A stretch of 64,000 nt of DNA, taken from NCBI RefSeq assembly GCF_007625205.1, contig NZ_VMNI01000012.1, forward strand, positions 62,001 to 126,000, written 5' to 3'. Positions within the stretch are counted from its first letter, which is position 1; each line of letters starts with the position of its first letter. The notes under the pieces were generated by a model that was not told where the DNA came from, ran no database searches, and was given only the letters and a program-made list of their open reading frames with translations. This stretch comes from Denitromonas ohlonensis. Its GTDB lineage: Bacteria; Pseudomonadota; Gammaproteobacteria; Burkholderiales; Rhodocyclaceae. Below, in pieces: positions 46,501-50,599 of the stretch. The translations under genes were made by a program, and so were the position numbers.

Positions 46501-46902
46501 ATGGGTTTTACGCTTTCCCTGTCAGCGTGCGGCCACTTTGTCCTTTGCCGGGTCAGCGAAGACGTGACACTGGGTCTGATCCGCCAGGCAACGCTCGACG
46601 CCACCGCGTTTGGCGATGCCCACGGCACGCAAGGGTTTCTGTTCGATGCACGCGGCACGCGCAATGTCGAATCGATCTTCCGCAACTACCAGTTCGCGCA
46701 CGAAGAATTGCCGACGCTGGGGGTCAACCGTGCGGCCAGCTTCGCCGTTCTGATCGACCCGGACGACCGCTCGCAGGATTTTCTCGAGACCACCGTCCGA
46801 AACGCCGGCTTCGACATGCGCCTGTTCACCGACCCCGACAAAGCGGCGCAGTGGCTCGTGCTACGCCAGCCAGGCGCCACGCGCATGGGCAATGGCGTCT
46901 GA
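46501..46902 (+). CDS. Hypothetical SpoIIAA/STAS-like protein
   Basis: A 133-residue protein of alternating beta-alpha pattern (CGHFVLCRVSEDVTLGLIRQATLDATAFG, GFLFDARGTRNVESIFRNYQFAHEELP, AVLIDPDDRSQDFLETTVRNAGFDMRLFTDPDKAAQWL). It resembles the SpoIIAA/STAS-like family known in bacteria but with no strong family match that I can name. No membrane segment. ATG 46501 follows AGGAG. Function unknown. Confidence 0.65.
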   Translation: MGFTLSLSACGHFVLCRVSEDVTLGLIRQATLDATAFGDAHGTQGFLFDARGTRNVESIFRNYQFAHEELPTLGVNRAASFAVLIDPDDRSQDFLETTVRNAGFDMRLFTDPDKAAQWLVLRQPGATRMGNGV

Positions 46903-47032
46903 CGCGTCATTGTTTTTGAGCGCCGACCGTAAGCATTGCCCCCTCAGCCGGGTCTATCTCCCTGACAGCGCCCTGAACGGACGCCCCAACACCCCGGCAG
47001 CCCCGCCTGCCCGATGTCCAGGAGACCCCGTC

Positions 47033-47491
47033 ATGAAACACTTCCGCCTTCCCCTCACCGCGGCCCTGTTGGCGCTCGGCATGGGCACCGCCCAAGCGGC
47101 CGCAGAACCCACCGTGATCCACTTGAACCAGGTCGGCTGCCAGTTTCTGGAAAGCGAGCACGACATCAATCGCGGCTACACCCCCATGACCGCCGACGAT
47201 TGCCGCAAGATCAACGCCGACACCGGCGACAAGCGCCTGGCCGAGGCCAAGGTGCTGAACCTCAAACCCGGCCGCTACGTCTTCCGGGTCAGCAACCAGA
47301 ACGTGCCTTACGAGCTCGGCTTCTGGCTGCGCGGCGACGGGCTGGCTGCCCGCGCGCTGCTGCCCAGCGTGTCGGGCGGTGGCCTGGTGACCGGCAAGAC
47401 GCAGGACTACGAGATCGAGCTCAAGGCCGGCGAATATGTCTATTCCTGCCCGCTGAACCCCACCCCCGACTACAAGCTGGTGGTGCGTTAA
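47033..47491 (+). CDS. Periplasmic cupredoxin-like protein
   Basis: A 152-residue exported protein (signal peptide about residues 1-24, LLALGMGTAQAAA). The body is beta-rich with NQVGCQFLESEHDINRGYTPMTADDCRK and, near the C-terminus, YVYSCPLNPTPDYKLVVR. The SCPLN...YK end resembles cupredoxin copper-site tails, but the usual histidine and methionine ligands are not obvious. A copper-related periplasmic role is possible, not shown. A terminator follows at 47510. Confidence 0.7.
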   Translation: MKHFRLPLTAALLALGMGTAQAAAEPTVIHLNQVGCQFLESEHDINRGYTPMTADDCRKINADTGDKRLAEAKVLNLKPGRYVFRVSNQNVPYELGFWLRGDGLAARALLPSVSGGGLVTGKTQDYEIELKAGEYVYSCPLNPTPDYKLVVR

Positions 47492-47557: not shown

Positions 47558-48289
47558 TCAGCGCAGAGACTCGGTCAGCGCCGCGGCAAAGGTGTCGACC
47601 GCGATCGGCAGGTAGCCGATCACATCAATATTGCGATCTTCGTAGACATCGTCGCCCGGCCGGTCGCGCTGGCAATCGGACATGACCGCGTCTCGATGGC
47701 GCAACAAGCCCTCGATCTGCGGCCCGTACAAGCGCAGCAAGGCCGTCAGCCAGCGATTGGTCGGCCACGAGGGGAAGGCGTGATCGATCTCGAAGTGTTG
47801 CAGGATGGCGACGGCGTCGTCGGCGGCATACCAGGACTCGTCGGTCACCCAGCGGTTGGTGGTGAACAAGCCTGACGGATAGCCCCAGCCATCCATCGAC
47901 ACCGCGATCAGATGGCAGATGGCGTCGTCGCCCGTCGGACGCGGCTCACTGGCATGCGGCACCGCCAACGGCACTCGGCCGTCCGGCACGCCACCGGCGC
48001 GCACAAAGGTATGGAAATGGCCATGCTCGGCGTCGACGCCGCGATGGGCGTGATAGTAATACTGACCATGGGTGTCGCGGTCATACACATCCTCGGCCGG
48101 ATAGTGCGCCAGCTCGACGAACTCGCCCCCGCCCCGCAGCACCTCGCCCACCACATTCAGACCGCCCTTGCGCAAGACCCGATAGCACTCATCAATGTCA
48201 CGCGCGGCCGCCTGCATCTGCATGCGCCGGGCACGCGGAATGCCCGCCAGATCCGGCAGGTAATCATCCAGTCGAAGCGTAGAAGACAT
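47558..48289 (-). CDS. DUF6969-like hypothetical protein
   Basis: A 243-residue cytosolic protein with His-rich HGQYYYHAHRGVDAEHGHFHTFVRAGG, then HLIAVSMDGWGYPSGLFTTNRWVTDESWYAADDAV. This looks like a family I recall as DUF6969; the name is tentative. The clustered histidines suggest a metal site. ATG 48289 follows GAGGAGGGG. Function unknown. Confidence 0.7.
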   Translation of the reverse strand: MSSTLRLDDYLPDLAGIPRARRMQMQAAARDIDECYRVLRKGGLNVVGEVLRGGGEFVELAHYPAEDVYDRDTHGQYYYHAHRGVDAEHGHFHTFVRAGGVPDGRVPLAVPHASEPRPTGDDAICHLIAVSMDGWGYPSGLFTTNRWVTDESWYAADDAVAILQHFEIDHAFPSWPTNRWLTALLRLYGPQIEGLLRHRDAVMSDCQRDRPGDDVYEDRNIDVIGYLPIAVDTFAAALTESLR

Positions 48290-48469: not shown

Positions 48470-49177
48470 TCAGTAGGCTTTGCAGGGGTTCTTCGCAGCG
48501 CACGGATTACGAGCAGCGCACGGGTTTTTCGCCGCGCAGGGGTTGCGGGCGGCGCACGGGTTGGCGGCGCACGGACTCTTTGCAGCGCAGGGATTGGGCT
48601 TGTAGCCCTTTTGCACCACGTTCACGTAGGCCACCAGATCGGCCAGCTCGCGCGACTTCCAGCCCAGCGGCTGCGCCGCCATCGGGCGCACCATGCACAG
48701 CTGCACCATCTCATCGAGGTGGATCTGCGTCATGCCGTAGTTGTCCATGGCCATCTGCACAGGGTGCGGATAGGGCTGGGCAAAGCTGGCCTTATAGGCG
48801 GCGCCACCGGTATGGCAGCTATTGCACGACAAGCCATTGGTAGACAGCTGGGTGTCCTTGAAGACCGCTTCACCACGCGTGGCATCGCCCTTCATCGGGA
48901 CATAACCGGCCGGACGCGTGATCGCCTTCGCGGCGCAAGGGTTGGGGGCTTTGGCGGCCGCACACGGATTAGCGGCACACGGGTGCTTTGCCGCACAGGG
49001 GTTACGAGCGGCGCAGGGGTTTTTTGCGGCGCAGGGATTCTTGGTCGACCAGGCTTTGCGGTCACGGGCACTGCATGGACGGCACGGCGCGGCGGCCAAA
49101 GCGGCGCCACCCGCAGTCATCAAGCCCGTCGCCAGCATGGCCGCGACCAGGGTATGGGGTGTTGATACCTGAGCCAT
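48470..49177 (-). CDS. NPCAA-repeat protein with a c-type haem motif
   Basis: A 235-residue exported protein, unusually rich in Cys, Ala, Asn, Pro and Lys. After a signal peptide (about 1-30) come six PCAA units (about residues 47-84, NPCAAK/NPCAAR/HPCAA), a compact cytochrome c domain (about 90-192) with CNSCH at Cys118-His122, and seven more NPCAA units to the C-terminus (195-235). The central part contains candidate Met distal ligands (MAMDNYGM, VQLCMVRPM). The flanking repeats are predicted thiol or metal-binding tails. I find no precedent for this whole architecture. ATG 49177 follows GGGAGAG. Confidence 0.82.
   Translation of the reverse strand: MAQVSTPHTLVAAMLATGLMTAGGAALAAAPCRPCSARDRKAWSTKNPCAAKNPCAARNPCAAKHPCAANPCAAAKAPNPCAAKAITRPAGYVPMKGDATRGEAVFKDTQLSTNGLSCNSCHTGGAAYKASFAQPYPHPVQMAMDNYGMTQIHLDEMVQLCMVRPMAAQPLGWKSRELADLVAYVNVVQKGYKPNPCAAKSPCAANPCAARNPCAAKNPCAARNPCAAKNPCKAY
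48473..48595 (-). repeat. Tandem repeat coding for C-terminal NPCAA units
   Basis: Seven imperfect units of about 15-18 bases encode N/S-P-C-A/K-A-K/R at residues 195-235. The units vary in codons, so the array is diverged. Confidence 0.8.
48926..49039 (-). repeat. Tandem repeat coding for N-terminal NPCAA units
   Basis: Six units of about 15-27 bases encode N/H-P-C-A-A-K/R at residues 47-84, interrupted by one expanded unit (NPCAAAKAP). Confidence 0.75.
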
Positions 49178-49339
49178 GAGTCTCTCCCGTTCTCTGTGGG
49201 GATGGTTCATTCGACGCCGCTTACGCCGGCATGGCCAACAGGCACCGAACAAGAACGAACTTGCCCCGGCGTGTTCGTGCGCCAGGGCAAGCGGCGAGGC
49301 CCGCCGAGCCGATCATGACGACCTTGGCGGGCGGCCTCA

Positions 49340-49594
49340 TTACATCTTCTTGGCTGCGCAGGGGTTTTTCGCCGCGCAAGGATTCTTGGCAGCACACGGA
49401 TTCTTCGCCGCGCAGGGGTTTTTCGCCGCGCAAGGATTGGCGGCGCAGGGGTTCTTTTTGGCAGCGCACGGATGCTGAGCCGAGCAGGCGCCTTTCTTCG
49501 GTGCGCAGGTGGCGTAGGCCATGCTGCCCGCGGCCATCAGACCAGCGGCGACAAAGGCGGTGGCGAGCTTGCGAGCGGTCGGGTTCTTGGTCAT
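49340..49594 (-). CDS. Small exported NPCAA-repeat protein
   Basis: An 84-residue protein with an Ala-rich signal peptide (about 1-28) followed almost wholly by repeats: one HPCAAKK and six NPCAA(K) units, ending NPCAAKKM. It has nine cysteines in the mature part, no aromatic residues and no enzyme motif. It has its own ribosome site (TGGAGATTCCC) and lies 162 bases upstream of the haem-containing partner on the same strand. Likely metal-binding or thiol-rich periplasmic peptide; not assignable further. Confidence 0.8.
   Translation of the reverse strand: MTKNPTARKLATAFVAAGLMAAGSMAYATCAPKKGACSAQHPCAAKKNPCAANPCAAKNPCAAKNPCAAKNPCAAKNPCAAKKM
49343..49474 (-). repeat. Tandem repeat coding for NPCAA units
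   Basis: Seven units of about 18 bases (e.g. GCAAGGATTCTTGGCAGCAC-like on the plus strand) encode residues 41-82. The most regular of the three arrays. Confidence 0.8.
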
Positions 49595-49726: not shown

Positions 49727-50599
49727 CTAGCGCAAGAAATGCAGGACCACTACCTGACCATCGTCCAAGGGCATCCGCCAGCGATCCGGGCCATCCGGCA
49801 CCAGATTGCCCCCGATGCGCCCGGGCAAGTCGACACTCGCCAGCGTCTGCCACTCGCCGGCCCAGCGCAGCACTCGCATGCGCCGCTGCGCCTGATCCGG
49901 CACCAGCAGCGCATCGCGATCACCCACGCGCAGCACCTGCCCGAGCCCCAGCGCTGTGCTGCCGATACGGTGCGTGCTGACATCGCCGGTGCGGGCAAAC
50001 GGAACCAGCCGGGGCGGCGCCACCCGGTAGAGCGTCAGGATGCCGCCAAGGTGCGGGGTGAGCACGGCGGCCAGATCGACGTGGCCGTCACCATCGAAAT
50101 CACCGACGCCGACGGGATTGAGCCAGCGGTTGGGCTGGCCGATGAACTCGCTGCTGGCGTGGCGCACCACGGCGCCGGCATCCACCCGCCAGACGCTCAG
50201 CGCGGCCCCGCGGTCGGCATCGCTCTCGACCACCACCACGGCGTCGTCGCCCTCGCCCAGTGCCATCAAGCGCGGTACGAGGTCTTCGAAGACGCGGGTC
50301 TCAGCCAGTGTCGCAATGTAGACCTGGCCGTCGACCGTTTCGATGCGCAACTGCCCGGCCTCCAGCGCATCGCCCAGCACGGCATGGCCGTAGCGGTCGG
50401 TCGGCGCGGCCAGCCAGGCGGCGCGAATCGGTCCGCGCCCGAGCGCAACGGTGCTGTGTGGCAACTGATCGGGGCGCGTGGCGGCGGTCACCGGGGCCAC
50501 GGCTTTCGCTGGCGCAAGCCTCAGCTCAAACGCGCCAGCCGGCGCCAGGCAGCTCAGGCAGACCAGGCCCAACAGCAGATGCAACGCACGACGACGCAT
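49727..50599 (-). CDS. Exported FG-GAP/VCBS-repeat protein
   Basis: A 290-residue secreted protein with signal peptide (LLLGLVCLSCLAPAGA). It contains an FG-GAP calcium loop VGVGDFDGDGHVDLAAVLTPHLGGILTLYRV and related segments (LPVTAATRPDQLPH...), forming a probable beta propeller. ATG 50599 follows GAGGAGGCC. It lies nine bases downstream of the Bcr/CflA efflux gene, so it may be the last gene of that operon. Function unknown. The gap 49595-49726 shows nothing. Confidence 0.75.
   Translation of the reverse strand: MRRRALHLLLGLVCLSCLAPAGAFELRLAPAKAVAPVTAATRPDQLPHSTVALGRGPIRAAWLAAPTDRYGHAVLGDALEAGQLRIETVDGQVYIATLAETRVFEDLVPRLMALGEGDDAVVVVESDADRGAALSVWRVDAGAVVRHASSEFIGQPNRWLNPVGVGDFDGDGHVDLAAVLTPHLGGILTLYRVAPPRLVPFARTGDVSTHRIGSTALGLGQVLRVGDRDALLVPDQAQRRMRVLRWAGEWQTLASVDLPGRIGGNLVPDGPDRWRMPLDDGQVVVLHFLR

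Follow-up and report, generated by a model that had tools for sequence, protein, structure and literature searches.

The exported Cys-repeat proteins considered here invite comparison with the bufferins and oxazolins, of which HvfA is an example. In these systems, which carry EGKCG-type repeats and are accompanied by MNIO (PF05114) and DUF2063 proteins, the MNIOs that act on signal-bearing precursors are taken to be cytoplasmic (PMC12452194). A second point of reference is periplasmic sulfur chemistry. Cys123 of TsdA is a haem ligand and carries a thiosulfonate intermediate, SoxA-family enzymes join thiosulfate to a thiol with the ligand Cys as intermediate, and Arg119 of the thiosulfate site is called invariant in both TsdA and SoxA (PMC4423706). 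In Hyphomicrobium, sulfur enters the cell through YeeE-like SoxT proteins, and its carrier in the periplasm is SoxYZ (PMC11582611). Here we describe a locus in a 64-kb stretch of Denitromonas ohlonensis DNA (contig NZ_VMNI01000012.1, positions 62,001 to 126,000; hereafter the window) in which two exported NPCAA-repeat proteins, a small one and a cytochrome, are encoded beside a member of the DUF6969 family (PF22308). The pairing of DUF6969 with exported Cys-repeat proteins recurs in many bacteria and suggests an undescribed form of sulfur or metal handling outside the cell membrane.

The original prediction for this DNA had pointed to two adjacent exported repeat proteins, and these are indeed encoded, one of 84 amino acids with seven PCAA units and one of 235 amino acids with six units, a CNSCH motif and seven further units. 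It had also taken the two NPCAA genes as the unit, and had asked whether they co-occur in homologues and with which neighbours. A scan of a genome collection at species level yielded 331 candidate stretches, of which 292 encode a relative at E<=1e-3; repeat peptides made up two of the six patterns scanned for, so this number may include repeat proteins that lack the haem domain. We retained the 80 best, all of which carry the cytochrome open reading frame (ORF), and with the window and 10 further loci they made up 91 analysed loci, 89 of them with a clear NPCAA cytochrome ORF (C..CH plus at least four units; L012 and L013 were left out of the cytochrome counts). DUF6969 was found no more than 3 kb from the cytochrome in 68 of the 80 loci, on the same strand in 66 and downstream in 65, as against 26 of the 80 with a separate small NPC gene within 1.5 kb (30 when counted anywhere in the fetched stretch). 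The pair is thus not the unit, and the usual neighbour is DUF6969, which the first reading of the sequence had missed. Among 399 genomes of the order, 14 gave a strong cytochrome match (E<1e-30), and 11 of these 14 have DUF6969 as compared with 25 of the 399 overall. By their record names the 80 loci belong mostly to Beta- and Gammaproteobacteria, with some from Rhodospirillales, Magnetococcales and metagenome-assembled genomes of Rokuibacteriota. The architecture of the cytochrome recurs in relatives at 45-78% identity, the closest named ones being Zoogloeaceae bacterium G21618-S1 (78%) and Denitromonas iodatirespirans (71%), in a listing that may omit the genome of origin itself.

The association also holds when approached from DUF6969. 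Loci of this family, which occurs in 25/399 genomes of the order, 30/369 of the class and 20/398 of the phylum (about 5-8%, in overlapping samples), were gathered regardless of NPCAA from these three samples and from 4 selected of 168 plasmid records. This gave 75 distinct loci including the window, or 74 once L138, with too little of the gene, was left out. A fixed rule for ORFs (on the DUF6969 strand, no further than 1.5 kb away, up to 400 amino acids long, a Cys tripeptide at least three times, an apolar N-terminal stretch and low Arg) found a Cys-repeat ORF beside DUF6969 in 50 of the 74 loci, as against 1 of 74 for the opposite-strand control; the rule was devised after most loci had been seen, which favours it, and is shared by the opposite-strand and far-region controls. 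In 40 extended loci, which we selected from the 56 of the order and class samples, Cys-repeat ORFs numbered 36 in the 79.0 kb near DUF6969 versus one in the 236.4 kb lying beyond 2.5 kb, and that single far-region ORF was an NPCAA cytochrome. Within the 64-kb window the rule picked out only the small protein and the cytochrome. Inspection by eye added 12 further loci (L114, L135, L136, L137, L170, L182, L184, L188, L191, L193, L278 and L282, with just two PC units each in L182 and L184), so that 62 of the 74 DUF6969 loci have a Cys-repeat neighbour. Some rule-positive ORFs, such as those of L118, L119, L265 and L272, are haem proteins with Cys-repeat arms, not small proteins, and among the 50 are cases in which the ORF is the NPCAA cytochrome. 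In the window, as in the majority of the loci listed, the Cys peptide is encoded upstream of DUF6969.

The repeats themselves fall into very different classes, among them NPCAAK, NPCGPK, NPCAPSARGG, PCGL/PCSL after an N-terminal membrane anchor, SPCGL, CAPK, CGAK, CCGCCG and CAAT. When mapped on a quick DUF6969 tree with seven labels (including 'other' and 'none'), in which 28 of 71 inner branches were drawn open and some branches are long, repeat class required 12 changes versus a mean of 46.7 in shuffles, and none of 200 shuffles came as low. The adjacency of DUF6969 and Cys-repeat proteins has outlasted turnover of the repeat sequence, and a module consisting of DUF6969 and one or more exported proteins with short Cys repeats is, as a statement of which genes keep company, one that we hold with high confidence on gene neighbourhood. 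Two members of this set deserve separate mention. In L265 (213-1304, minus strand), NPCAP-type repeats beside DUF6969 are fused to a cytochrome P460-like domain (Pfam E 1.8e-4, 22.3 bits, below the cut-off of 27), which adds a second case of Cys repeats joined to a c-type haem protein. On pSymA of the laboratory strain S. meliloti 1021 (L279, 5601-6552; NC_003037.1, near 1,280,771-1,281,316), DUF6969 (239 bits) comes right after an anchored APCAAG-repeat protein, in a part of the record that carries no annotation in the collection used.

The DUF6969 protein of the window is a firm member of its family (265.7 bits, cut-off 27) and, having no signal-like N-terminal stretch by eye, is probably cytoplasmic. 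Its AlphaFold2 model, built on 33 aligned sequences, has a predicted local distance difference test score (pLDDT) of 94.5 and a predicted template modelling score (pTM) of 0.92. Foldseek searches with this model gave best E values of 0.59 in the PDB and 0.14 among viral models; as no fold match reached E<=0.001 in either set, homology assigns DUF6969 no mechanism, and the model may represent a new fold when judged against these two collections. Seven residues, H80, H82, H91, H93, H126, N145 and V148, are invariant in 74/74 loci. The DSSP string places the histidines on strands 75-83, 88-97 and 124-132, in which a hairpin register would bring H80 and H91 opposite each other, and from the model we infer a putative metal site of five His. 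No published mention of DUF6969, PF22308 or NPCAAK was found in the part of the literature searched, in line with the earlier view that no such system had been described; strings of the NPCAA and NPCGP type do occur in print, on unrelated subjects by title among the matches listed.

The second protein of interest is the cytochrome, for which the ATG at 49177 was used as start (a longer alternative begins with TTG at 49252). PC units flank the haem motif on both sides in 89/89 loci, with 2-17 units before it and 1-14 after. The full window protein matches PF21342, the SoxA/TsdA cytochrome c family, at E 2.3e-8 (34.4 bits, cut-off 27), and 44/44 diverse relatives match this family at E<=0.01. 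CCP_MauG is likewise matched by 44/44, and the window haem domain scores 21.1 bits against it, below the cut-off of 25.6. An AlphaFold2 model of the haem domain (pLDDT 91.2, pTM 0.84) found TsdA as its best Foldseek match in the PDB (E 3.4e-3, probability 1.00) with SoxA next, and no PDB match reached E 0.001. The HMMER alignment to TsdA (4v2k/4wq7) is weak, at E 0.79, and pairs Cys161 of the window protein with Cys123. Since the Foldseek value lies above 0.001 and the HMMER alignment is weak, the SoxA/TsdA assignment rests jointly on the Pfam match, the probability and the rank. A PDB sequence search with the whole cytochrome returned nothing at E<=0.001, and one with profile A3 put other c-type cytochromes on top, mostly matched around the haem motif, with SoxA (1h31, 4.1e-4; 3ocd, 0.01) and TsdA (0.46) lower down. 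The score against the SoxA equivalogue TIGR04484 was 29.1 bits, short of the cut-off of 110, and no other PF21342 gene was found in the genome of origin. Conserved Met residues lie near the invariant Cys161, and the position of TsdA Arg119, four residues before the Cys, is a Met in the window protein and in at least 90% of A3 (M76). Thus the haem domain is of the SoxA/TsdA fold and probably has the Cys/His ligation of that family, with the known thiosulfate site incomplete. The haem link that had been drawn from the sequence stands, and the generic electron transfer proposed with it gives way to sulfur or thiol chemistry, to which the SoxA/TsdA fold points.

The extended DUF6969 loci most often have sulfur genes as their context; family names in these loci were obtained by running Pfam on cluster representatives. 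Members of the YeeE/YedE cluster (Sulf_transp, PF04143) occur in 17/40 of these loci, all on the DUF6969 strand (12 full length and 5 half proteins), upstream of DUF6969 in 15 and about 1.8 kb downstream in L206 and L233. An exported-looking rhodanese (PF00581) follows DUF6969 on the same strand in 15/40, and the genes most often run YeeE/YedE, Cys peptide, DUF6969 and then rhodanese. At distances of up to 4 kb from the cytochrome (n=89, with cluster names taken from one representative each) we counted DUF6969 in 70 loci, a very weakly cupredoxin-like protein in 28, Sulf_transp in 25 (same strand in 25/25), a multihaem cytochrome in 24, an extracytoplasmic function (ECF) sigma factor in 21, DUF302 in 20, DUF3179 in 14 and an anti-sigma zf-HC2 protein in 11.

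These observations are best brought together by a scheme in which DUF6969 would be a metalloenzyme of the cytoplasm whose metal site consists of five His; it would bind the repeat protein prior to export and act on the cysteines of that protein, by modification, loading or protection. After export, the repeat protein would serve as a periplasmic carrier of sulfane sulfur, or of another group bound to its thiols, and in many loci the YeeE/YedE transporter and the exported rhodanese could bring sulfur to or from this carrier. In the NPCAA lineage, to which the window belongs, the repeat has been fused to both sides of a cytochrome of the SoxA/TsdA type, probably with Cys/His ligation. This cytochrome could act as an oxidase of sulfur species and transfer them to the small protein as well as to its own arms, instead of to the SoxYZ carrier. 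That DUF6969 acts on the repeat cysteines and that the product carries periplasmic sulfane sulfur is, taken together, the best explanation we can offer, put forward tentatively and at a little under an even chance. An enzymatic role for DUF6969, taken by itself, seems to us slightly favoured; as to the cargo, sulfur is the probable one and metal is about half as likely. The fullest form of the proposal, in which DUF6969 is the first of a class of metal-dependent enzymes with a new fold, acting by modification or loading on the Cys of exported repeat proteins and independently of MNIO, the products are a class of multi-site periplasmic sulfur carriers not seen before and the NPCAA cytochrome is a self-loading version of them, its SoxA/TsdA-type haem writing sulfur onto the arms of the same protein, is speculative and on balance improbable as a whole.

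Several points weigh against this scheme. No YeeE or rhodanese gene stands beside the window genes, the single PF04143 gene of the genome lying on another contig, and with Met in place of Arg119 thiosulfate itself is a doubtful substrate of the cytochrome. DUF6969 is absent from the fetched stretch in 12/80 cytochrome loci, two of which have less than 2 kb downstream. Three of the 14 cytochrome genomes of the order have no DUF6969, namely G240, G413 (87% complete) and G219 (67% complete); in G240 and G413 the cytochrome adjoins a small NPC gene and there is no DUF6969 match genome-wide, an arrangement which indicates that DUF6969 is usual and not indispensable. Conversely, no Cys-repeat neighbour was found in 12/74 DUF6969 loci (L115, L172, L173, L192, L264, L266, L267, L268, L270, L273, L280 and L281), of which L270 is truncated by a contig edge and L115 comes from a genome with an NPCAA cytochrome on another contig. 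Two of the twelve, L280 and L281, have no Cys-repeat protein on the DUF6969 strand in 12.6-12.7 kb. The clustering of repeat class on the DUF6969 tree, moreover, is partly expected of any linked pair through shared ancestry.

Of the loci just listed, the Azospirillum plasmids L280 and L281 have DUF6969 behind an MlaE/MlaD-type lipid ATP-binding cassette transporter operon, a context in which DUF6969 may act on something else, and a different role or a distant partner is suggested there. In L266-L268, DUF6969 lies beside an FGE-sulfatase protein (formylglycine-generating enzyme-like, PF03781; called by Pfam on L266 and by sequence likeness in L267 and L268). The candidate role of canonical thiosulfate conjugation for the cytochrome was weakened by the missing Arg.

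The strongest rival is metal buffering, in which the repeat thiols, modified or free, would bind surplus periplasmic copper, or some other soft metal, in the manner of bufferins and DUF6969 would be a maturase or a metal chaperone; we consider it unlikely, while ranking it ahead of the other alternatives. Its appeal lies in the bufferin-like layout, with a Sec-exported Cys-rich precursor and then a cytosolic enzyme (PMC12452194), and in the ECF sigma cluster found near 21/89 cytochrome loci and in 7/40 extended loci, with zf-HC2 in 11/89. The very weakly cupredoxin-like neighbour (28/89) would also fit. However, that label comes from the window member alone, in which the likeness stays below the cut-off, and it is absent from the cluster representative (L110, 10187-10672), which has no Pfam family at E<=0.01. 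The C-terminal YSCPLNPTPDY of the window protein also lacks the usual cupredoxin His ligand. MNIO is found somewhere in 30/54 DUF6969 genomes and in the same extended stretch in 3/40, and one such run, L197 (3138-6659), unites MNIO (PF05114), DUF2063, DoxX, an exported CGAK-repeat peptide and DUF6969, so that MNIO and DUF6969 may act on a common substrate there. Against this, 24/54 DUF6969 genomes have no MNIO, and none was found in the genome of origin, where the absence of a nearby MNIO noted from the sequence extends to the whole genome (0 matches, with a match in the Caulobacter control) and leads us to reject MNIO processing there. In L195 and L227 each MNIO is accompanied by its own precursor-like ORF, probably of the DUF2282 type, and action of MNIO on the NPC peptides of these loci is not favoured. 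Finally, the YeeE/YedE and rhodanese context points to sulfur.

Less probable still is a thiol redox or electron conduit, in which the arms would be plain thiol/disulfide buffers or flexible tails for docking, a CcdA/thioredoxin pair would keep them reduced, the haem would only move electrons and DUF6969 would be a chaperone, not an enzyme. CcdA/DsbD_TM-like genes in 3/40 and exported thioredoxin-like genes in 7/40 extended loci, a CcdA-like cluster (named by likeness) near 5/89 cytochrome loci and repeats that look disordered from their composition are all consistent with it. It leaves unexplained, however, the five invariant His of DUF6969, the SoxA/TsdA fold and the link to YeeE and rhodanese. 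A little more doubtful again is the view that DUF6969 is merely a frequent neighbour with an unrelated job, such as envelope lipid transport or regulation, and that the Cys-repeat proteins act alone. The Azospirillum Mla-type operon, in which no Cys peptide was found, speaks for it, as do the 12/74 DUF6969 loci without a Cys-repeat protein and the 3/14 cytochrome genomes without DUF6969, two of them with a small NPC gene; the contrast in density between the near and far regions of the extended loci, maintained across very different repeat classes, speaks against it. A local low-complexity expansion in one strain, which the original prediction had named as its own undoing, is rejected in spite of short-period repeats at the DNA level, since the PCAA units are encoded by mixed synonymous codons (Ala by GCC, GCG, GCT and GCA, for example), the arrays in the window have a 71-82% DNA match in Tandem Repeats Finder, as is expected of arrays kept as protein and not freshly expanded as DNA, and related stretches occur in many public genomes with the repeats kept over deep divergence.

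The features of the locus are collected in Table 1; transcription on the minus strand runs from the 84-residue repeat protein through the repeat-armed cytochrome to DUF6969. The small protein has a Sec-like N-terminal signal followed by six NPCAA units and one HPCAA unit (signal peptides were assessed by eye together with a hydrophobicity rule). It matched no Pfam and no NCBIfam family at E<=0.1 and so bears no precursor signature of either collection. Searched against its own genome (4.42 Mb, rated 100% complete), it found itself and both cytochrome arms and no third NPCAA gene. A promoter scan found no promoters at the locus and Rfam gave no match at gathering score. Terminator-like sites numbered three versus 1.7 expected in shuffles, and as two of them, on the minus strand, fall between the three genes, they lend no support to co-transcription. 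Upstream of the small NPCAA gene, at 49727-50599 on the minus strand, lies an FG-GAP-like repeat protein (Pfam below cut-off), whose cluster is found near five analysed loci, the window included.

Table 1. Features of the NPCAA locus, in window coordinates
Feature	Position	Strand	Basis or match
Small Cys-repeat protein of 84 aa, exported, with seven PCAA units	49340..49594	-	ORF
Exported cytochrome of 235 aa with a SoxA/TsdA-type haem domain flanked by Cys-repeat arms	48470..49177	-	PF21342
N-terminal arm, six PCAA units (residues 47-84)	48926..49039	-	residue positions
Haem c attachment motif CNSCH (residues 118-122)	48812..48826	-	C37, C40 and H41 invariant in A3
Cys161 (C80 of A3), aligned with TsdA haem-ligand Cys123	48695..48697	-	invariant 44/44
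C-terminal arm, seven PC(A/K) units (residues 195-235), last NPCKA	48473..48595	-	residue positions
DUF6969 (PF22308), 243 aa, candidate metal-dependent partner enzyme	47558..48289	-	PF22308, E 3.2e-79
Convergent neighbour, exported, with very weak cupredoxin likeness; associated	46892..47491	+	Cupredoxin_1, E 0.02, below cut-off

The pairing gives DUF6969 a first candidate substrate in the neighbouring exported Cys-repeat protein. If DUF6969 modifies those cysteines, it would provide a second route, besides that of the MNIOs, to processed Cys-rich exported proteins, and if the products carry sulfane sulfur, they would constitute a periplasmic step ahead of YeeE/YedE import. As in bufferin systems, short Sec-exported Cys-rich precursors lie directly upstream of a cytosolic partner, with an ECF sigma factor and sometimes DoxX nearby (PMC12452194), whereas here DUF6969, whose model has no PDB match at E<=0.5, stands in the place of MNIO, the repeats are mostly of the xPCxx type and the context is one of sulfur genes. 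The main text of PMC12452194 makes no mention of DUF6969, SoxA, YeeE, rhodanese or cytochrome. As compared with SoxYZ, SoxT/TsuA (YeeE/YedE) and the rhodanese-type sulfurtransferase, a periplasmic Cys may likewise carry sulfur and an importer and a sulfurtransferase share the locus in relatives (PMC11582611); in contrast, a low-complexity chain bears many Cys here, where the folded carrier has one, the rhodanese looks exported and DUF6969 is an additional component. The NPCAA cytochrome, in turn, has the fold, the Pfam domain above its cut-off and the invariant Cys at the Cys123 position in common with SoxA/TsdA cytochromes, and differs from them in its one haem motif, its Met for Arg119 and its Cys-repeat arms. 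Thus, judged against the part of the literature searched and with its biochemistry inferred, the module appears to be new in kind, joining the layout of bufferins without their defining MNIO to a SoxA/TsdA domain without the complete site.

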